Source: Verrucomicrobiales bacterium
GTDB taxonomy: Bacteria > Verrucomicrobiota > Verrucomicrobiia > Verrucomicrobiales > DEV007
Assembly (NCBI GenBank): GCA_002698785.1
Contig: PAAG01000047.1
Location: 372,001 to 436,000, forward strand
DNA: 64,000 nucleotides
Reading direction: 5' to 3'
Part shown: positions 7,631 through 30,758 of the stretch, piece by piece
Position numbering within the stretch: the first letter of the stretch is position 1
Layout of the letters: each line of letters starts with the position of its first letter
The notes under the pieces: model-generated
The model's database searches: none
Told to the model about the DNA's origin: nothing
What the model saw: the letters and a program-made list of their open reading frames with translations, nothing else
Translations under genes and position numbers: made by a program

Positions 7631-8827
7631 ATGCCTTTCAGCCCAGTTGAAGAAGTAATCGCCGACATTCGTGCGGGAAAGATGGTCATCGTTGTTGATG
7701 ACGAGGACCGTGAGAATGAGGGAGATCTGGTTTGTGCTTCAGAAAAGATCACGCCAGAGATGGTCAACTTCATGGCCACCCACGGACGGGGGTTGATCTG
7801 TGCCCCACTGCTCCCCGCGGCCACAGAAAGGCTAGGCCTTCCTCTGATGGTTCGAAGGAATACCGAATCTCACGGCACCAATTTCACCGTAGCCGTCGAC
7901 GCCGCCCACGGAGTCACGACCGGCATCAGCGCCTCAGATCGCGCGACGACGATCCGTGTTCTCGCAAATCCGATGTCTGAGCCACAGGACCTCGTGCGCC
8001 CCGGGCATATCCTCCCCCTTCAAGCCATGCAGGGAGGAGTTCTCAGGCGCGCAGGCCATACCGAAGCGGCCGTAGATTTAGCCCGACTCGCCGGTTTGGA
8101 ACCCGCGGGCGTGATCTGCGAAATCCTCAACGAAGACGGCACCATGGCCCGCCTTCCTCAGTTGGTGGAATTCGCGAAGAAGCATGACCTGAAAGTCGCA
8201 ACAATCGAATCATTAATCGAATACCGTCGCCGCGAAGAAAAACTCGTCGAACGCGTCGAAACGATCAACATGCCCACCGACTACGGCGAATTTCTCCTTC
8301 ACCTTTACGAAAGTCGTCTCAATCCCAACGAGCAGCACATCGCTTTGGTGAAAGGAGATATCGATCCCACCACACCCGCCCTCGTCCGCGTTCACAGCGA
8401 ATGCCTCACGGGTGACGTGTTTGGATCACGTCGCTGCGACTGTGGATCCCAGCTCCACTCCGCTTTGGCACAGATCGAAGAGTCTGGAGCAGGTGTCCTT
8501 TTATACATGCGCCAGGAGGGCCGAGGAATCGGCCTCGCCAACAAGATCCGCGCATACAAACTCCAGGAGGAGGGACTCGACACCGTAGAAGCAAACGAAC
8601 GCCTTGGCTTCGGTTCAGATCTGCGAGATTACGGCATCGGCGCCCAGATTCTCCACGACGTAGGAGTCAGGAAAATTCGCCTTCTCACGAACAATCCAAG
8701 AAAGGTCGTCGGCCTCGACGGACACCATCTCGAAATCGTGGAGAAAGTCCCTATCAAAGTTTCTCCTAACCCGCACAACGAGAAATACTTGGAGACGAAA
8801 AGGGACAAGCTCGGCCACTTTTTATAG
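7631..8827 (+). CDS. ribBA: Bifunctional DHBP synthase / GTP cyclohydrolase II
   Basis: A 398-residue fusion for the two entry reactions of riboflavin synthesis. The N-terminal half (about 1-200) makes 3,4-dihydroxy-2-butanone 4-phosphate from ribulose 5-phosphate and shows the acidic loop [12 protein letters not shown], then [10 protein letters not shown] and [10 protein letters not shown]. The C-terminal half (about 205-398) opens GTP. It has the zinc ligands in [17 protein letters not shown], then [19 protein letters not shown] and LTNNPRKV. Length and order match standard RibBA. The leader has a TCCCTCC tract (7621-7627) and no Shine-Dalgarno. ribH is 33 bp downstream. ribD and ribE are not in the window. 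Confidence 0.96.
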
Positions 8828-8860
8828 ATTGTCTTTTCTTAACATTTTCCGATTCCTTCT

Positions 8861-9352
8861 ATGTCGAAAACCGCTCCAGAATCTCCAGAGGCAACCAGCA
8901 CGTCCGGCTCCGTTTGCATCGTTGCGTCGCGCTACAACAGCAAATACACGGACGCCCTCGTAGAGTCAGCCACCGCTACCTTGGCAAAACTGGCCCCCGA
9001 CCTACGAGTGAAAACAGTCCGCGTCCCGGGAGCATTCGAAATTCCCGTCGTGGTGGAAGCCGCCGCCTGTGGAGAAGAACAACCGCTCGCTATCATCGCC
9101 CTCGGTGTAATCATCCGGGGCTCAACCGCTCACGCCGATTTGATCGCAGAATCGATCACCAAGTCGCTGCAGGAAACGAGCGTAAGCCATTTGATTCCTG
9201 TCATTCACGAAGTCCTCCTCGTCGACAATTCCGAGCAGGCGGAAACACGCACACTGGGAGACGAACTGAATCGTGGTCGTGAAGCAGCCGAGGCCGCGAT
9301 CGCCATGGTCGATGTCATGGAATCACTCGACAACGCGGACAACGTTGTGTAA
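8861..9352 (+). CDS. ribH: 6,7-dimethyl-8-ribityllumazine synthase
   Basis: A 163-residue lumazine synthase. It condenses the butanone phosphate made by RibBA with 5-amino-6-ribitylaminouracil. Visible motifs are ASRYN (residues about 22-26), VPGAFEIPV (about 54-62), GVIIRGSTAHADLI with the conserved His, and a DNSEQAETR segment. The loop IPVIHEVLL departs from the usual PVxFGVLT, a modest variation. The N-terminal 16 residues are Ser/Thr/Pro-rich and probably flexible. A TTCCTTCT tract directly precedes the ATG. It is third in a probable cupin-ribBA-ribH operon. Confidence 0.95.
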   Translation: MSKTAPESPEATSTSGSVCIVASRYNSKYTDALVESATATLAKLAPDLRVKTVRVPGAFEIPVVVEAAACGEEQPLAIIALGVIIRGSTAHADLIAESITKSLQETSVSHLIPVIHEVLLVDNSEQAETRTLGDELNRGREAAEAAIAMVDVMESLDNADNVV

Positions 9353-9367
9353 GTCGACTCACTCCTT

Positions 9368-10324
9368 ATGACTGATACCATCATCTTCCTGGACCGCGAT
9401 ACGACCGACCGTGGTGACCTTGATTTCTCACGCCTCGATAGTCTGGGCAATCTCTTGAGTTACGGGGTCACCGGCCCCGGAGAAACCGCCTCTCGAATTG
9501 AGAATGCGGAGATCATCCTCACTAACAAAGTAGTCATCGGAGCCGAAGAGATGGATGCCGCACGGAACCTGAAACTCATTCAGGTCGTGGCCACAGGGAT
9601 CAACAACATCGACGTCGATGCAGCACGCGATCGCTCGCTGGCTGTTTGTAACGTGAGCGGCTACAGCACAGAATCCGTCGCACAGCACGTGTTTGCCAGC
9701 CTTTTGAATCTGGAAACAAACGTCCACCGCTTTGCAGCGGAGCCCAAGAAGTGGGCTGAATCTCCTATATTTACTCGCCTTGATTACCCAATCTCTGAGT
9801 TGGCTGGTAAGACAATCGGTATCGTCGGCTACGGATCGATCGGCCAAGCAGTGGCGCGTATCGCCAAGGCTTTCGGGATGGAAGTCGTCGCATTCTCACG
9901 AACCGGGCAAACCACTTGGGGAGAAGTACCGCGTCTGGCTGCAGATGAATTCTTTGAAAAAGCCGACGTTGTCACACTGCACTGTCCGCTGACTCCCGAC
10001 ACTAAAAATTTCATCAATCAGGAAACTCTTTCAAAAATGAAGGACAGCGCCATCCTGATTAACACAGGTCGTGGTGACCTCGTACACGAAGAAGACTTGG
10101 TAGCCGCTCTCAAAAATGGAACGATTCGCGGTGCAGCAGTTGACGTGCTCACACCCGAACCGCCTACCCCTGACCACCCATTTCTCAAAGCAGAACTGGA
10201 AAACCTGTTCATCACTCCTCACACGGCATGGAGTTCTCGGGAAGCTCGCCAGCGACTTCTCGACGGCATCGTGGCCAACATCGAAGCTTTCCGAAAAGGA
10301 CAGAAACGAAACCGAGTCGATTAA
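9368..10324 (+). CDS. D-2-hydroxyacid dehydrogenase (glycerate dehydrogenase-like)
   Basis: A 318-residue NAD(P)-dependent dehydrogenase. It has the Rossmann glycine motif GIVGYGSIGQAVA (about residues 149-161), the catalytic Arg in LINTGRGDLV (about 235), the Glu in VDVLTPEPP, and the His in FITPHTAWSS (about 286). These fit the 2-hydroxyacid dehydrogenase family. The overall pattern is closest to glycerate/hydroxypyruvate reductases, but the substrate cannot be fixed from sequence alone. It starts 15 bp after ribH with a CTCACTCCTT leader and is followed 15 bp later by the mannonate dehydratase-like gene, so a sugar-acid role is plausible. Confidence 0.88.
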   Translation: MTDTIIFLDRDTTDRGDLDFSRLDSLGNLLSYGVTGPGETASRIENAEIILTNKVVIGAEEMDAARNLKLIQVVATGINNIDVDAARDRSLAVCNVSGYSTESVAQHVFASLLNLETNVHRFAAEPKKWAESPIFTRLDYPISELAGKTIGIVGYGSIGQAVARIAKAFGMEVVAFSRTGQTTWGEVPRLAADEFFEKADVVTLHCPLTPDTKNFINQETLSKMKDSAILINTGRGDLVHEEDLVAALKNGTIRGAAVDVLTPEPPTPDHPFLKAELENLFITPHTAWSSREARQRLLDGIVANIEAFRKGQKRNRVD

Positions 10325-23950: not shown

Positions 23951-24454
23951 GTGACAGAAAGCGAACAGAATTCCCGATTTCGCGAATGGTATGAAAACCA
24001 TCGTGGGATCATCGTGAAGATTTCAAAATCCTTCACTAACACAATTCAGGACCAACAGGATCTCATCCAGGAGATATCCGTTCAGCTATGGAAATCCGTC
24101 CCATCGTTCCGCGACAAATGCAAAGAGTCCACCTGGATCTATCGAGTCGCCCTGAACACGGCCATCGCATGGAGCCGGAAAGAAAAACGGCAGAAGAATA
24201 AGGAACGGAACTTTGCCGATGACGCCTTCATTTTTTCCCAGCAGGAGAATCCCGAGAACAAGAGGCTGGATTGGCTTTTCGAACAACTTCGGAAACTCGA
24301 CGTAGTCGACCGTTCGCTCCTTCTCTTGCATCTGGAAGGGCAAAGTTATTCCGAGATCGCCGGGATTCTCGGGACCACCGAAAAGAATGTCGGAGTCAAA
24401 CTCTCACGACTCCGCAAAAAACTCTCACAAACTGCTACACGCGATGGAATTTGA
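23951..24454 (+). CDS. ECF-type RNA polymerase sigma factor
   Basis: 167 residues. Region 2 is recognisable (DQQDLIQEISVQLWKSVPSFRDKCKESTWIYRVALNTAIAW in scattered form, about 35-78), and region 4 as LLLLHLEGQSYSEIAGILGTTEKNVGVKLSRLRKKL (about 117-152), a helix-turn-helix for the -35 element. The start is GTG 23951 with AGGA at about 23945-23949. Its last 11 bases overlap the start of the next gene, so the two are translationally coupled. The membrane-protein partner may act as its anti-sigma factor (inference). The promoter target is unknown. Confidence 0.88.
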   Translation: MTESEQNSRFREWYENHRGIIVKISKSFTNTIQDQQDLIQEISVQLWKSVPSFRDKCKESTWIYRVALNTAIAWSRKEKRQKNKERNFADDAFIFSQQENPENKRLDWLFEQLRKLDVVDRSLLLLHLEGQSYSEIAGILGTTEKNVGVKLSRLRKKLSQTATRDGI

Positions 24455-25070
24455 CGAACTTCAGATCGTTTGGAACCAGGCGGATTCCAAACCTCAGTAT
24501 CAACTCAACGAGGAGGCGATGTTCCGAATCGTGACGAAAGATAGGGAAAATTTTCACTCCATGATCTCGAATCGAGATCTTCGAGAAGCCGGGATCGGAA
24601 TCATTCTATTTTTCGTTTTTCTCGGTTTCGGTATCGCTCGGAGCGTAGAAGAAGGCATTCATTCTCTCGAAGCGCTGTCGATGTATGTCTCTGCCATTGG
24701 GGTTGCCTTTGTCGTTTCTTACCTGCTGATCACACGCTCTCGCCAGGCCAGACGAGAGAGGGAATTCGATACCGATACGGTGAAGGGCACACTGCTCCGG
24801 CTCCATTCGAACGTCTCGTTTCAAGCACGCCTTCTGAAGGGCGTGGCGTGGTGGTATCTACTGCCTCTCGTTCCCGGTCTCGTCTTGTTCAATATTTCGG
24901 GAGCAATTGAATATGGGACGAACATGTTCGACGACATGCTCATCCCGGTGGGAATTTTCCTTTTTGTCTTATGGTTGAACCTCCACTGCGTGAAGACCTA
25001 CCTGACTCCCAAGAAGATTGAGCTGGAGGATTTCCTTGAGAAACTGTCAGATGGCGAGCCTGCAGAATAA
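24444..25070 (+). CDS. Multi-pass membrane protein coupled to ECF sigma factor
   Basis: About 208 residues from ATG 24444, which lies inside the sigma gene (11-bp overlap). A short cytoplasmic N-terminus (about 1-50, FDELQIVWNQADSKPQYQ) is followed by two pairs of hydrophobic helices: IGIILFFVFLGFGIA, ALSMYVSAIGVAFVVSYLLI, VAWWYLLPLVPGLVLF and ILIPVGIFLFVLWLNL. The position suggests an anti-sigma or sensing role, but no zinc HxxxCxxC anti-sigma motif is visible. The last 73 bases overlap, on the opposite strand, the end of the DUF817 gene. Confidence 0.75.
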   Translation: MEFDELQIVWNQADSKPQYQLNEEAMFRIVTKDRENFHSMISNRDLREAGIGIILFFVFLGFGIARSVEEGIHSLEALSMYVSAIGVAFVVSYLLITRSRQARREREFDTDTVKGTLLRLHSNVSFQARLLKGVAWWYLLPLVPGLVLFNISGAIEYGTNMFDDMLIPVGIFLFVLWLNLHCVKTYLTPKKIELEDFLEKLSDGEPAE

Positions 25071-25879
25071 CCCTGCGATTTCTGTCGCCGAAACTGCACC
25101 AGCGAAACGAGGACAAAGCTCAAGATCATCAGTAGATACCAAGCCCAGAATTTCTGAAACGAGACGAGGTGCCATCCATCACTCTGGGTGGGATACACCC
25201 ATCCACGGGCAAAGGTTCCTACATTCTCTGCCACCCAGATGGCAAGCGCTACTAACATGAGCCCAACGGCCAAAGGCATCTTCCGGTATTTTGCCCCGGT
25301 TCTGAAACTCAGCTCGCAACGACCAAACATGATCAAAGAAGCCACAATCAAAACCCATCTAATGTCCCAGATGAAGTGATGCGTGAAGAAATTGGCATAA
25401 GCAAGAAATGCCACGGCTACAGTCATCCACACCGGCGGGTAATTACGGAATCGAAAATCAAACAGTCGCCATGCTCGCGCGATGTAACTTCCCACCGCAG
25501 AATAGAGGAATCCAGCAAACATGGGGACCTGATAAATCCGGAATATCACTCCTTCATCCGGGTAATGCCACGAACCGATCGCCGGTGAAGTCTTAAACCA
25601 CTCCATCACAGTCGCGAGAATGTGGAACGCGAAGATCACGATCAACTCGTCTTTGTGCTCCAATCGGAAAACCACTAGAGCCACCTGTAGCAGGAGCGCA
25701 TAGAGAAAAAGAATGTCAGAGCGGGAAAGGTCAACATCGGGCACCCAGAACTTTGTCAGGAGTAACCCGGCCAACATCAAGCCCCCAAACAGGCAAGCGA
25801 GCACCTGCGTTTTCCCAAACCATATCAATTCCCGAAGCTGATACGGCCCTTTGTTAATCGAAATCTCCGAAGCTTTCAT
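24998..25879 (-). CDS. DUF817 multi-pass membrane protein
   Basis: 293 residues with about eight predicted transmembrane helices. Motifs resembling DUF817 are FRLEHKDELIVIFAFHILATVMEWFK split over helices 3-4, GSWHYPDEG, the HHFIWDIRW segment, then ENVGTFARGWVYP and VSFQKFWAWYLLMILSFVLV. The family is a predicted integral-membrane protein of unknown function with conserved His and acidic residues. The hydrophilic Ser/Lys tail (about 265-293) lies in the convergent overlap and may not be conserved; an earlier functional end is possible. Confidence 0.85.
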   Translation of the reverse strand: MKASEISINKGPYQLRELIWFGKTQVLACLFGGLMLAGLLLTKFWVPDVDLSRSDILFLYALLLQVALVVFRLEHKDELIVIFAFHILATVMEWFKTSPAIGSWHYPDEGVIFRIYQVPMFAGFLYSAVGSYIARAWRLFDFRFRNYPPVWMTVAVAFLAYANFFTHHFIWDIRWVLIVASLIMFGRCELSFRTGAKYRKMPLAVGLMLVALAIWVAENVGTFARGWVYPTQSDGWHLVSFQKFWAWYLLMILSFVLVSLVQFRRQKSQGYSAGSPSDSFSRKSSSSIFLGVR

Positions 25880-26058: not shown

Positions 26059-27756
26059 ATGAACTCCCGCCAATTTCCCAACGCTTGCCGGCTATCACTC
26101 GGCCTGTCTCTCCTTGTGACCCCTCTAACATTGCTTGTCTCGTGCTTTGAGAAACCAGCAACAAGTGAAACGCCACCAGCATCCGATTCCAAGAATCTGG
26201 TTCTCACTTTCACCTACGGATCTGAGAAAGAAAAGTGGATCGACGCACTGACAAAAGAATTCAATACCGCCAAGCACGAGACATCTGACGGACGAGCTAT
26301 CTTCGTCGATGCCATTCCCATGGGTTCGGGAGAATGCGTAGAAGAGATTATTTCCAAGAAGCGGGAAACTCACCTTGTAAGCCCGGCTTCCGCAGTGTTC
26401 ATCGCTCTCGGCAACGCGGAATCCACCGCAACCACAGGCGAACCACTGGTCGGTGATACCGAGGACCTCGTCCTTTCGCCGGTTGTCATTGCGATGTGGA
26501 AACCAATGGCAGAAGCACTTGGGTGGCCAGATAAATCCATCGGCTGGAAAGAAATCCACGACCTCGCCCTGAACGAGCAGGGATGGGCCTCACTCGGGCA
26601 TCCCGAATGGGGTCGCTTCCGCTTTGGCCACACTCATCCCGAGTATTCCAATAGCGGGATCATTTCACTGATAGCGGAAACCTACGCCGGAGCCGGAAAG
26701 TCACGAGACCTTACCTTGGAGAACGTTACCAGCCCTGAAGTGGGAACCTATCTGGAAGAGATCGAGAGAGCTGTTGTCCACTATGGCAGATCGACGGGGT
26801 TCTTCGGCCGTAAAATGTTCAGCACGGGCCCCAATTATTTGAGTGCGGCCGTACTCTACGAGAACATGATTATCGAAAGCTACGGAATGGATAACCTCCC
26901 GTTTCCCGTCGTAGCACTCTACCCGACAGAGGGCACATTCTACTCGGACCACCCTATCGGGATTGTGGAGAGGGACTACGTCACAGACTCCCATCGCGAA
27001 GCAGCGGAAAAGTATATCGAGTTTCTCACCAGTTCCAAGCAACAGAACCGGGCCATGGAATTCGGTTTTCGTCCCGCGGACGTTTCAATTCCCCTTTCGG
27101 ACACTTTCTCGAGCGCTTACGGCGTAGACCCACAACAACCACAAACAACTCTGGAGGTGCCTCCCGTACCTGTCGTGAACAGCATTCTGGACCTATGGCA
27201 CGAGAGAAAGAAAAAATCCAACGTAGCCCTCGTCCTCGACATTTCCGGAAGCATGTCTGAGCAGGGAAAGATGCAGAACGCGAAAGCTGGCGCCTTGCAA
27301 TTTCTTAACATGCTAGGCGAAAAGGACCAAATTTCCGTCAATGTCTTCAACCACGTTCCTGTGTGGCTAGGGCAGGACATGCCTGTTGGGAAAAATCGAA
27401 ATGCGATGCGCGAAAAAATCAACGGCCTGTTTCCCGATGGAGGCACGTCTTTATATGACGCGATATCAGTATCTCACCAGCATCTCACCGCCTCCCCTGA
27501 CAAGGAGCGAATCGTAGCGATGGTGGTTCTATCTGACGGTCAGGACCAGAGCAGCAAAACGGACCTGAACCGGGTTTTACAAACCATTCAGTCCGGTGAA
27601 GAAGGTGGAAGTGTCAGAATATTCACCATCGGATATGGCTCTGGGGCCAGCGCAGAAGTCCTTGAACAGATTGCCAACGCGACTCGCTCGAAATACTATC
27701 AGGGAACCACCGAAAACATCGAAAAGATCTTCAAAGAGATCTCCACATTTTTCTAA
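26059..27756 (+). CDS. Solute-binding / VWA fusion lipoprotein
   Basis: About 565 residues. The signal LSLGLSLLVTPLTLLVSC has a lipobox-like VSC, so a lipoprotein is likely. Residues about 45-365 form a type-2 periplasmic binding-protein-like domain (LTFTYGSEKEKWIDALTKEF, IPMGSGECVEEI, VSPASAVFIAL, SNSGIISLIAETYAGAG, FRPADVSIPL). Residues about 385-565 are a von Willebrand A domain with an intact MIDAS, DISGSMS, plus VLSDGQDQSS. The start at ATG 26059 begins the signal cleanly. The next gene, 12 bp downstream, is a paralogue of the binding domain without VWA. No permease or ATPase is nearby, so capture or signalling rather than import is inferred. Confidence 0.82.
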   Translation: MNSRQFPNACRLSLGLSLLVTPLTLLVSCFEKPATSETPPASDSKNLVLTFTYGSEKEKWIDALTKEFNTAKHETSDGRAIFVDAIPMGSGECVEEIISKKRETHLVSPASAVFIALGNAESTATTGEPLVGDTEDLVLSPVVIAMWKPMAEALGWPDKSIGWKEIHDLALNEQGWASLGHPEWGRFRFGHTHPEYSNSGIISLIAETYAGAGKSRDLTLENVTSPEVGTYLEEIERAVVHYGRSTGFFGRKMFSTGPNYLSAAVLYENMIIESYGMDNLPFPVVALYPTEGTFYSDHPIGIVERDYVTDSHREAAEKYIEFLTSSKQQNRAMEFGFRPADVSIPLSDTFSSAYGVDPQQPQTTLEVPPVPVVNSILDLWHERKKKSNVALVLDISGSMSEQGKMQNAKAGALQFLNMLGEKDQISVNVFNHVPVWLGQDMPVGKNRNAMREKINGLFPDGGTSLYDAISVSHQHLTASPDKERIVAMVVLSDGQDQSSKTDLNRVLQTIQSGEEGGSVRIFTIGYGSGASAEVLEQIANATRSKYYQGTTENIEKIFKEISTFF

Positions 27757-27768
27757 CATACCAAAGAC

Positions 27769-28977
27769 GTGAGTGCAGTAGAAGATCAGGGACCAAGACT
27801 AACTATACTGGGGAAGCTGTTTCTCCTCGTATTTATGGGCGCATGTGGTTTCGGCGCCTGGTGGTTGATTACGAAACGTGGTTCAGAAGACCCTGGGACC
27901 GGTAAGCCGAAAACAGGAGAGGTAGACCCGAAGCCAACCGGAAAGAAAACCGAACTCCGAATCGCATACGGAACCGAAAAGAAAAATTGGCTCAAATGGG
28001 CCGTCGAAGAATTCGAAGCCACGAAAGAGGGCAAAGATATTCAAGTGACGCTCATTCCCATGGGCTCGCTGGAAGGTGCCCGAGCCACAGTAAAAGGAGA
28101 GGAAGAGATTCACGTCTGGAGTCCCGCAAGCTCGGCCTACAGAGATGTCTTTGTCACTGACTGGCAGTTGGAGCACTCGGGCAACCCAATCGCACGAGAA
28201 GAAACACTGGCACTGTCTCCAATGGTTTTTGTTATGTGGAAGGAACGATACGACGCGTTTGTTTCTCAATATAATGCCTTGGACTTTGAGACACTTTCCG
28301 AAGCCATGGTAGCACCGGGAGGTTGGAACGACATTGCCCAGAAGCCTGAGTGGGGATTCTTTAAGTTCGGTCATACCAACCCGACTCAATCCAACAGTGG
28401 CCTGATTTCTCTCACATTGATGGCTCACCACTACTATGACAAAACCACGCCTCTGGAAGCACAGGACATAGTGAACGCTCCATTCCAGACGTGGCTCAAA
28501 CAAATCGAAGGCTCTGTATCTGGCTTGATTAACAGTACCGGCAACATGATGCGAGACATGGTTTTGAAAGGACCCGCCAGCTATGATGTTGTGCTGGTTT
28601 ACGAGAACCTCGCGATCGATTACCTCAAGAATGCGGAAGGTCGATGGGGACAGCTCTATGTTGTCTATCCGAAAATAAACCTGTGGAATGACAATCCTTA
28701 CTACATCATCGATGCCCCATGGGTAGAAAAGAATGAGAAAAAAGCAGCAGAAACATTCCTCGAGTTTCTTATGTCAGAGCCGATTCAGCAACAGTCGCTC
28801 GTTCATGGATTTCGCCCGGGGAATCCATCCGTTCCTGTCATCGGCCCGGAAAGCCCATTCGAGAAATACAAGAAGTATGGGCTCCAGATCGCGATCGATA
28901 CAATTGCAGAACCACCAAGGGCAGACGCCATCAACAACCTCCTCACAGGTTGGCAGAGGTTGAGAAGTTCGCAATAA
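27769..28977 (+). CDS. Membrane-tethered solute-binding protein, paralogue of upstream gene
   Basis: 402 residues, start GTG 27769. One N-terminal transmembrane helix (about 13-35, LTILGKLFLLVFMGACGFGAWWL) lacks an obvious cleavage site and should anchor it. A Gly/Pro/Lys linker follows, then a binding-protein-like domain. Its motifs mirror the upstream protein: RIAYGTEKKNWLKWAVEEFE, IPMGSLEGA, HVWSPASSAY, GFFKFGHTNPTQSNSGLISL, LVYENLAIDY, GFRPGNPSVPV. The ligand is unknown. It shares the operon with the VWA fusion and the coiled-coil gene. Confidence 0.82.
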   Translation: MSAVEDQGPRLTILGKLFLLVFMGACGFGAWWLITKRGSEDPGTGKPKTGEVDPKPTGKKTELRIAYGTEKKNWLKWAVEEFEATKEGKDIQVTLIPMGSLEGARATVKGEEEIHVWSPASSAYRDVFVTDWQLEHSGNPIAREETLALSPMVFVMWKERYDAFVSQYNALDFETLSEAMVAPGGWNDIAQKPEWGFFKFGHTNPTQSNSGLISLTLMAHHYYDKTTPLEAQDIVNAPFQTWLKQIEGSVSGLINSTGNMMRDMVLKGPASYDVVLVYENLAIDYLKNAEGRWGQLYVVYPKINLWNDNPYYIIDAPWVEKNEKKAAETFLEFLMSEPIQQQSLVHGFRPGNPSVPVIGPESPFEKYKKYGLQIAIDTIAEPPRADAINNLLTGWQRLRSSQ

Positions 28978-28993
28978 TTCTACCGCCTCGCCT

Positions 28994-29806
28994 GTGAACA
29001 GAGCGTTCAAATATCTAAAGGCTGCCTTCTTGGTCAGGGAGAAGATTCCACTGCTCGGTCATGTTCCCGTAAACGTGCTGATGCTTTCAGGCTTTGCCGT
29101 TCTAGGTTTCGGACATCCGGCATTCTGGTTGATAGGCCTGATTGGAGAAATCGGTTTTCTTTGGTCCATGGCAGGTTCCAAGCGATTTCGAAAATGGGTC
29201 GATGCTGTTGACGTTGTTGAGAATCAGAAAAAAGATCTCAGCGAAAAGGAAACCTTGTTGTCTCGCCTCACTCCACCGAATCGAAAGCGATTTGATTCTC
29301 TCGAATCGCAATATGGAACGATTCGATCCGATTATGAGAAATCCCATGTGGGTGAATCTCTCTATGATAACAACCTGGCAAACTTGAAGAATTTGAAGCG
29401 GGTCTATCTGCGACTTCTCGTCGCCTCTCAAAAGCTGGAAGTGAAAGATCAGGGAGAGAACCTTCGATCCATTCGTTCGAGAATCGAAGAGATCGATGCT
29501 GAACTCTCATCTCCTGGTCTGACCAACGCCTCGCGCGAGAGTCGGACTCAGATCCGCAGCCTACTCGAAAAGAGGATCGACGTATTGGAAAACAGGAGCC
29601 GGTCGTTAGACGAGATCCACACCGATCTTGAACAAATAGAAACACAATTTCAACTCTCCCTCGAAAGCACCGCTCTCAATGATTCTCTCACCGAGGAAAA
29701 ACTTGATCTGGATTTGGCGAGAAATATGATCACCACTCCCGGCTACACAGCTTTTCTTGCAGACGACAACGAGCCGGATCCATTGGTCGAATGGGAGTTA
29801 GATTAG
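28994..29806 (+). CDS. Membrane coiled-coil protein of the SBP-VWA operon
   Basis: 270 residues, start GTG 28994. One or two hydrophobic helices at about 25-60 (VNVLMLSGFAVLGFG, FWLIGLIGEIGFLWSMAG) precede a long charged helical region (about 75-235) with coiled-coil character (IRSRIEEIDAELS, DEIHTDLEQIETQFQLS). The C-terminus is acidic (DDNEPDPLVEWELD). No family recognised. With no long periplasmic domain, it probably signals or scaffolds on the cytoplasmic side of the two binding proteins (inference). It converges on the thioredoxin-like gene (19-bp gap). Confidence 0.75.
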   Translation: MNRAFKYLKAAFLVREKIPLLGHVPVNVLMLSGFAVLGFGHPAFWLIGLIGEIGFLWSMAGSKRFRKWVDAVDVVENQKKDLSEKETLLSRLTPPNRKRFDSLESQYGTIRSDYEKSHVGESLYDNNLANLKNLKRVYLRLLVASQKLEVKDQGENLRSIRSRIEEIDAELSSPGLTNASRESRTQIRSLLEKRIDVLENRSRSLDEIHTDLEQIETQFQLSLESTALNDSLTEEKLDLDLARNMITTPGYTAFLADDNEPDPLVEWELD

Positions 29807-29825: not shown

Positions 29826-30758
29826 TCATCGTCGCAGTGTAGCAACCTGCGACGGGCTCAACCATTCCAGAGCAGCCTCTGGATTGGTTCGCGCGAAAGA
29901 ATTTACTTTCGTCGCCTGAACTGGCGAGAGTTTTAATTCTTCGAATGGGGTTCCCTGCAATTGCTTCTTTTGATCCGAATCACTTGCTCGTCGATAGTCG
30001 TCTGTAAGTGTAGCAACAGACAATCGCGATTTTCGAGCAGCAGTAAGGTCATCCTCATTCAAGGCATACACTTTGTCGGCGCAATCATACTGAGCAGCTG
30101 CACCGACCAGTTCCTCGAAAGGCAGCTTCTCTCGGTCAAACGAGACGAGTGTCACTTCCCTACCATCCAGCCACCCAGCCTCGGTAGTCAGAACTCCTTC
30201 AATACTTCCCAAACGAAGTTCTCCCGTCCAGAAGCAATACATGGCAAAAGCAGCAGTTCCTGTTTCTGCCGCGACTTCGCTTCCTGCAAGCGCTCGAAGA
30301 TACTTTGGAGCATCTTGCCCAAACGCCTTGAGAGCTTCCACCATACGCGCCGCTATTCCTTGCAGGGACCAAACTCTGTCTTTTCGCTCGATGATGTCTT
30401 TCCCCTCCTTATCGAGAAATCTGACGACTTGAAAGTTCCAGGCCGGTTCACGGTATTTTTTCAGAATTTCTGCATCTTTCCCCGGTTGGTTGTTATAGAC
30501 CACTACGGGAACGAACTCTGTCTCAATAGCTTCAACCAGTTGAGGGTGGCTCAGCACTTCACGTCCAAATTTCTGACAACCAGCACAACCTGGGACTTCC
30601 TGAAACAAAACGAAAACAGGTTTTCCGGTCTCAGCGGCTTCGACAAAACCAGCTTCCCAGTCTCGCTTCCAATCTACTTCACCCACTTCAATCCGCCTCT
30701 CGCCGGAACAGGCAATCGTTGGCAGATAATACAAAATCGCAATCAAGAACCACCTCAT
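29826..30758 (-). CDS. Secreted thioredoxin-like protein with VPGC motif and MsrA-like second domain
   Basis: About 310 residues. A signal peptide (FLIAILYYLPTIACSG) precedes a thioredoxin-fold domain (about 25-150) with FVLFQEVPGCAGCQ, a CxxC redox pair at about Cys58/Cys61. VPG followed by Cys (or selenocysteine) marks a known thioredoxin-like family. A second part (about 165-260) resembles peptide methionine sulfoxide reductase A: FAMYCFW (Cys about 175), GVLTTEAGWLDGREVTLVSFD, then FEELVGAAAQYDC. The GCFW Gly is replaced by Tyr. A periplasmic methionine-repair role is inferred. The start is ATG 30758; a longer frame begins with TTG 30809. Confidence 0.75.
   Translation of the reverse strand: MRWFLIAILYYLPTIACSGERRIEVGEVDWKRDWEAGFVEAAETGKPVFVLFQEVPGCAGCQKFGREVLSHPQLVEAIETEFVPVVVYNNQPGKDAEILKKYREPAWNFQVVRFLDKEGKDIIERKDRVWSLQGIAARMVEALKAFGQDAPKYLRALAGSEVAAETGTAAFAMYCFWTGELRLGSIEGVLTTEAGWLDGREVTLVSFDREKLPFEELVGAAAQYDCADKVYALNEDDLTAARKSRLSVATLTDDYRRASDSDQKKQLQGTPFEELKLSPVQATKVNSFARTNPEAALEWLSPSQVATLRR
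29830..29854. terminator. Perfect 8-bp hairpin between convergent genes
   Basis: CGTCGCAG (29830-29837) and CTGCGACG (29847-29854) form a perfect inverted repeat with a 9-nt loop. It lies inside the last codons of the minus-strand thioredoxin-like gene and 24 bp after the coiled-coil gene. It could end transcription in either direction. No T-run follows on either strand. Confidence 0.35.

Follow-up and report, generated by a model that had tools for sequence, protein, structure and literature searches.

A transporter-free solute-binding/VWA operon of a Verrucomicrobiales bacterium and its association with PspA and AAA+ genes

Organization of the three-gene operon

The DNA analysed here, referred to as the window, is a stretch of 64,000 nucleotides from a Verrucomicrobiales bacterium (contig PAAG01000047.1, positions 372,001 to 436,000). 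Its subject of interest is an operon of three plus-strand genes (26059-27756, 27769-28977 and 28994-29806), separated by intergenic gaps of 12 and 16 bp, which encode a solute-binding protein (SBP) fused to a VWA domain, a membrane-anchored SBP paralogue and a transmembrane (TM) coiled-coil protein. An initial annotation, made from the sequence alone, had described this layout, the domains, the metal ion-dependent adhesion site (MIDAS) and the two gaps, all of which were borne out by the exact coordinates, Pfam matches and conservation. The features are as follows.

26059..27756, plus strand: gene 1, lipoprotein with a type II solute-binding domain fused to VWA; 565 amino acids (aa), ATG start (Pfam, AlphaFold model, PDB matches)
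26134..26145, plus strand: lipobox LVSC, gene 1 residues 26-29 (sequence motif)
26191..27213, plus strand: solute-binding domain, gene 1 residues 45-385 (Pfam and structure matches)
27214..27744, plus strand: VWA domain of gene 1 with complete MIDAS (Pfam, conservation, structure match)
27769..28977, plus strand: gene 2, membrane-anchored paralogue of the gene 1 binding domain; 402 aa, GTG start (Pfam and identity)
27805..27873, plus strand: N-terminal transmembrane anchor of gene 2 (hydropathy peak at residues 17-35)
28994..29806, plus strand: gene 3, two-TM membrane protein with a coiled coil; 270 aa, GTG start (AlphaFold model, operon position)
29069..29176, plus strand: transmembrane helix pair, gene 3 residues 26-61 (hydropathy and AlphaFold model)
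29180..29674, plus strand: helical coiled-coil region, gene 3 residues 63-227 (AlphaFold model)

Annotation of the open reading frames (ORFs) with Pfam found neither a permease or ATPase gene adjoining genes 1-3 in the window nor a kinase gene next to the operon. A terminator-like hairpin follows gene 3 (29905-29931), and a promoter scan of the operon gave matches at chance level.

The product of gene 1 matched SBP_bac_11 (PF13531, E=1.2e-12) and VWA (PF00092, E=4.8e-15), and a crude scan of 84 ORFs homologous to it showed a lipobox-like motif in 57. Its AlphaFold model (predicted local distance difference test score, pLDDT, 88.6) resembled type II binding proteins in the PDB, namely the thiamin-binding protein 2qry (Z 27.9) and the sulfate-binding protein 1sbp (Z 26.5), as well as the VWA domain of 4fx5 (Z 26.7). 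As modelled, the binding domain has the two-lobed type II solute-binding fold; the initial annotation would have fallen if the binding domains lacked a periplasmic-binding fold, and the PDB matches of the gene 1 model upheld that fold. The five MIDAS residues D394, S396, S398, T463 and D493 (DxSxS, T, D) were all invariant in 41 homologues, as were E56, K57, S90, P109, H191, T192, S197, H241, Y242, T246 and E268 of the solute-binding domain. With its complete, invariant MIDAS and its profile similarity to the VWA domains of adhesive proteins such as integrin and TRAP, the gene 1 VWA could be an adhesin or an assembly chaperone that depends on a metal ion and acts on the cell surface or in the periplasm, the SBP serving as regulatory domain and no cytoplasmic partner being involved. 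We regard this as improbable, since it leaves unexplained the conserved gene 3 and the linkage to PspA and AAA+ genes described below.

Gene 2 matched the same SBP family (PF13531, E=3.4e-15) and showed 30% identity to gene 1 across 370 aa (E=2e-47), with a single, N-terminal TM segment by hydropathy. The motifs SNSG and IPMG occur in both proteins as the initial annotation had stated; GFRPG, also named there as shared, occurs in gene 2 only, gene 1 reading GFRPA. The two binding domains probably take a similar ligand, because residues resembling a ligand pocket (EK, SPAS, HT, SNSG, STG and YEN) are common to both.

For gene 3, the AlphaFold model (pLDDT 81.5) consisted of two hydrophobic helices followed by a long coiled coil, which we place on the predicted cytoplasmic side of the membrane. 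No Pfam or NCBIfam match was accepted for this protein, a Foldseek search returned no match at E<=0.001, and its VIA-align structure matches did not exceed what helical bundles normally give. Nevertheless, 18 homologues were found at the same operon position.

Some related operons contain PspA and AAA+ genes

A scan of genome contigs for relatives of gene 1 returned 80 loci in at least six phyla (Verrucomicrobiota, Planctomycetota, Acidobacteriota, Chloroflexota, Myxococcota and Gammaproteobacteria), with taxa taken from record titles. The neighbourhoods were annotated by ORF clustering and profiles; ORF calling was mechanical, with no gene finder, score thresholds were set by eye, and the incompleteness of metagenome-assembled genomes (MAGs) hides members. 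Relatives of genes 1 and 2 were adjacent in most of 81 loci, so the operon arrangement is not due to chance. Ten loci, the window among them, had the order SBP-VWA, SBP, gene 3. Two loci added a PspA gene between SBP and gene 3 without an AAA+ gene, and seven had the full order SBP-VWA, SBP, PspA, gene 3, AAA+; gaps between genes were short in most of these nine PspA-containing operons. Two other orders, both mostly from Chloroflexota and Myxococcota, were SBP, SBP-VWA, two-TM coiled coil (twelve loci) and SBP-VWA, two-TM coiled coil, SBP (ten loci). The remaining loci were partial, often at contig ends.

Relatives of gene 3 adjoined PspA and/or AAA+ genes in many loci. The gene 3 profile was unrelated to that of the operonic PspA, and comparison with the profile of the Chloroflexota/Myxococcota two-TM coiled-coil family gave a probability of 94.6 (E 7e-8), so that the two families are likely, though not certainly, homologous. 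Mirror-tree correlations among genes 1, 2 and 3 (Spearman 0.73, 0.60 and 0.47), which are confounded by species phylogeny, fit a common history of the three genes.

Proteins of the PspA/ESCRT-III type, which remodel and coat membranes, accompany this family in several phyla. The gene inserted in the fuller operons matched PspA_IM30 over the cut-off (E 1e-11), and their last gene matched AAA (E 2e-23) and was assigned by profile to CDC48/FtsH-type ATPases. PADLOC matches of the AAA+ protein to IetA reached 42 bits (1.9e-11) and were taken as general AAA similarity; gene 3 and PspA gave weak coiled-coil matches only in the same search.

PspA and AAA+ genes co-occur with gene 1 in Verrucomicrobiota

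We located both partners in the window genome, at two separate loci away from genes 1-3. Its sole PspA_IM30 (PF04012) match lies outside the window (G000:C2:426939) and belongs to the operonic PspA subfamily with 360 bits. The one full-length AAA+ orthologue (G000:C48:176927) scored 749 bits and carries one intact Walker A/B. Thus the three genes do not form an isolated device, because nine related operons add PspA, seven of them also AAA+, and the window genome encodes both elsewhere.

Of the 388 phylum genomes, nine carried the PspA subfamily (>350 bits), and precisely these nine carried the AAA+ protein (>700 bits; hypergeometric p 2e-18); the two genes were adjacent in only one of them (G399). 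Gene 1 itself was rare: it occurred in three of the 388 genomes and in three of 57 near relatives, and each count includes the window genome. Both partners were present in 10 of 12 gene-1-positive Verrucomicrobiota MAGs compared with 7 of 385 gene-1-negative genomes (p 5e-14), and when only unlinked cases were considered, in 6 of 8 gene-1-positive MAGs (p 9e-9), all of these p-values ignoring genome relatedness. In three gene-1-positive genomes PspA stood beside AAA+ away from genes 1-3 (L139, L141 and L145).

Comparison with sister operons and the published PspA/Snf7/AAA+ arrangement

Operons of PspA, TM-Snf7 and double-AAA+ genes with an ABC transporter and a PBPB-OmpA protein have been reported, the AAA+ protein having two domains of which the N-terminal copy is inactive (Ravi et al. 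2024, PMC11237479). Common to those operons and the present family are PspA, AAA+, a coiled-coil protein with a TM anchor and a binding protein that is likewise anchored. The TM protein of the ABC/OmpA operons was named a Snf7 homologue by these authors (PMC11237479); in our analysis a Snf7 identity of the TM coiled-coil protein was not confirmed, as Pfam gave no match and the structure match was weak.

We found such sister operons through relatives of gene 3 scoring 51-106 bits, which had AAA+ for company in L159, L163 and L164, and PspA as well as AAA+ in L151, L152 and L154. The HMM comparison relates gene 3 to its counterpart in the ABC/OmpA operons at 54-106 bits. Loci L152, L159 and L163 resemble the published arrangement (PMC11237479), and in L152 and L163 an anchored SBP-like/OmpA protein and a binding-protein-dependent (BPD) permease and/or ABC ATPase adjoined. 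The SBPs of the sister operons belonged to the NMT1 type rather than to SBP_bac_11.

Since a BPD permease and an ABC ATPase are part of sister operons that combine a gene 3 relative with PspA and AAA+ (PMC11237479), the window operon could be what is left of an ABC importer that has lost its permease and ATPase or obtains them in trans. The chances of this seem to us slim: no permease family was conserved around the 81 SBP-VWA loci by ORF clustering, the sister SBPs belong to a different family, and two SBPs and an invariant MIDAS kept across phyla are hardly expected of a broken operon. The same survey upheld the absence of a transporter asserted in the initial annotation.

The window operon differs from the published operons in lacking an adjoining ABC permease and ABC ATPase. 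The place of PBPB-OmpA is taken by two proteins from another SBP family, the SBP-VWA lipoprotein and its TM-anchored SBP paralogue. The terms vWA and von Willebrand are absent from the main text of Ravi et al. 2024 (PMC11237479), and in searches of the literature for SBP/VWA together with PspA, that paper was the one usable result. The window operon is most likely a previously undescribed transporter-free variant of the PspA/AAA+ arrangement. The initial annotation had proposed an undescribed system; because the ABC-carrying gene 3/PspA/AAA+ arrangement is published (PMC11237479), that proposal was narrowed to the transporter-free variant, and its picture of an isolated three-gene device did not hold.

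One further locus, L162 (5830-12362, minus strand), has an operon-like series of a VWA-like gene, a PspA-like gene, an anchored SBP-OmpA gene, a gene 3 relative and an AAA+ gene. Its PspA-like gene scored 23 bits to the subfamily profile without a Pfam match, and the Pfam scores of its separate VWA-like gene were just under the cut-offs. The parts are the same, but the VWA is unfused and the SBP is of a different family.

Signalling genes beside relatives of the operon

Histidine-kinase and/or response-regulator genes were found 3' of the operon on the same strand in six Chloroflexota loci. Within the range examined, L049 had a kinase only and L061 a regulator only; L056 had a regulator followed by a kinase, and L080, L082 and L091 a kinase followed by a receiver-only regulator. 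Pfam was run on members from L049, L056, L061 and L080; for the L056 kinase and for the kinase and regulator of L082 and L091, the assignment comes from sequence clustering only. A Band 7 protein is encoded upstream of the operon in L045, with a close look-alike, judged by sequence resemblance, upstream in L056. A PstS-like binding protein stands beside gene 1 in Thiotrichaceae and one other gammaproteobacterial locus (L024 by Pfam; L025 and L041 by clustering), so different binding-protein families occur in the same setting. In the gammaproteobacterial MAG locus L024 the gene concerned (8608-9735) matched PBP_like_2, has a hydrophobic N-terminal stretch and adjoins SBP-VWA. Because of these kinase/regulator, Band 7 and PstS-like contexts, a sensory role for the operon is favoured over uptake, and the ligand sensing suggested in the initial annotation gained from the six Chloroflexota loci. 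That annotation had also mentioned TelA-linked SBP/VWA operons of other bacteria, which likewise combine SBP and VWA domains; no TelA gene was found in the neighbourhood, and TelA (PF05816) occurred in 1 of 36 genomes carrying the gene 1 family, on a different contig, which speaks against such a partner.

The same loci could mean that the operon is a free-standing ligand sensor. Its SBPs would then signal a solute to a histidine kinase or some other signalling protein, and the connection with PspA/AAA+ would have been added in particular lineages. The gene 1 model matched 6lkg, a binding protein of a two-component system (Z 25.2), and the gene-1-positive Chloroflexota genomes searched, with kinase or regulator genes directly downstream in the six loci, lacked these PspA/AAA+ subfamilies. 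Systems with an SBP-type sensor such as 6lkg use the binding fold for sensing; the window operon differs from them in having no adjoining kinase or regulator and in the VWA fused in gene 1. The absence of a kinase beside the window operon, the confinement of sensor-kinase neighbours to six loci and the strong association with PspA/AAA+ in Verrucomicrobiota make a free-standing sensor unlikely in our judgement.

A proposed ligand-responsive PspA/AAA+ envelope system

Taken on gene content, order and co-occurrence, genes 1-3 probably constitute one half of an AAA+-driven, PspA/ESCRT-III-like envelope system, namely its periplasm-facing sensor and its membrane anchor, with PspA and AAA+, encoded in trans, as the other half. 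Several observations weigh against this. The co-occurrence p-values overstate the association because related genomes are not independent. PspA and AAA+ occurred without genes 1-3 in 7 of 385 genomes of the phylum and therefore have other roles; conversely, G135 carried gene 1 without PspA or AAA+ of these subfamilies, which were also absent, at the thresholds used, from the gene-1-positive Chloroflexota and Thiotrichaceae genomes searched. No Pfam Snf7/ESCRT-III match was accepted among 14 gene 3 family members, and the resemblance of gene 3 to an Asgard ESCRT-IIIB structure was weak and at helical-bundle level (Z 7.1).

In the envelope system so proposed, for which we infer the contacts, topology, ligand and direction of control, ligand sensing would control PspA. 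Both binding domains, of the SBP-VWA lipoprotein and of the anchored SBP, would close around a small periplasmic ligand, and the VWA domain would hold a partner through its metal site in the closed or the open state. The change would be relayed via the TM anchors of genes 2 and 3 to the gene 3 coiled coil at the cytoplasmic face, which may seed or restrain PspA assembly at the inner membrane, and the AAA+ ATPase would remodel or disassemble the PspA polymers. Tentatively, and with some doubt, we envisage a machine spanning the envelope: a periplasmic ligand, sensed without a transporter, would gate a PspA/ESCRT-III-like polymer and its AAA+ disassembly motor via a two-TM coiled-coil protein. 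If so, a ligand outside the cell membrane may control membrane repair inside. The cue for assembly of bacterial PspA/ESCRT-III polymers and the AAA+ motor that dismantles them are an open problem, and how assembly is regulated in PspA homologues without an associated AAA ATPase is unknown according to Ravi et al. 2024 (PMC11237479). A conserved transporter-free binding module that tracks a PspA subfamily and an AAA+ protein would offer a defined five-gene set for ligand-controlled membrane remodelling.

The proposed system also differs from other known ones. AAA+ ATPases and VWA proteins work in one system in MoxR AAA+/VWA pairs such as RavA-ViaA; the AAA+ protein here matches CDC48/FtsH-type models and the VWA is on a predicted lipoprotein. 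To our knowledge, neither SBP nor VWA components belong to the classical Psp or Bacillus PspA/YdjGHI-type systems. Those systems (PMC8581546) resemble the present one in combining PspA with anchors, and a Band 7 protein stands by the L045 operon.

Genes neighbouring the operon

About 1 kb upstream of the operon, at 23951-25070 of the window, lie a gene for an extracytoplasmic function (ECF)-type sigma factor (Sigma70_r2, r4_2) and then one for a small multi-TM protein; the sigma factor is a possible regulator of the operon. A DUF817 membrane protein gene (24998-25879, minus strand) is divergent from gene 1, with which it has a common intergenic region of about 180 bp.

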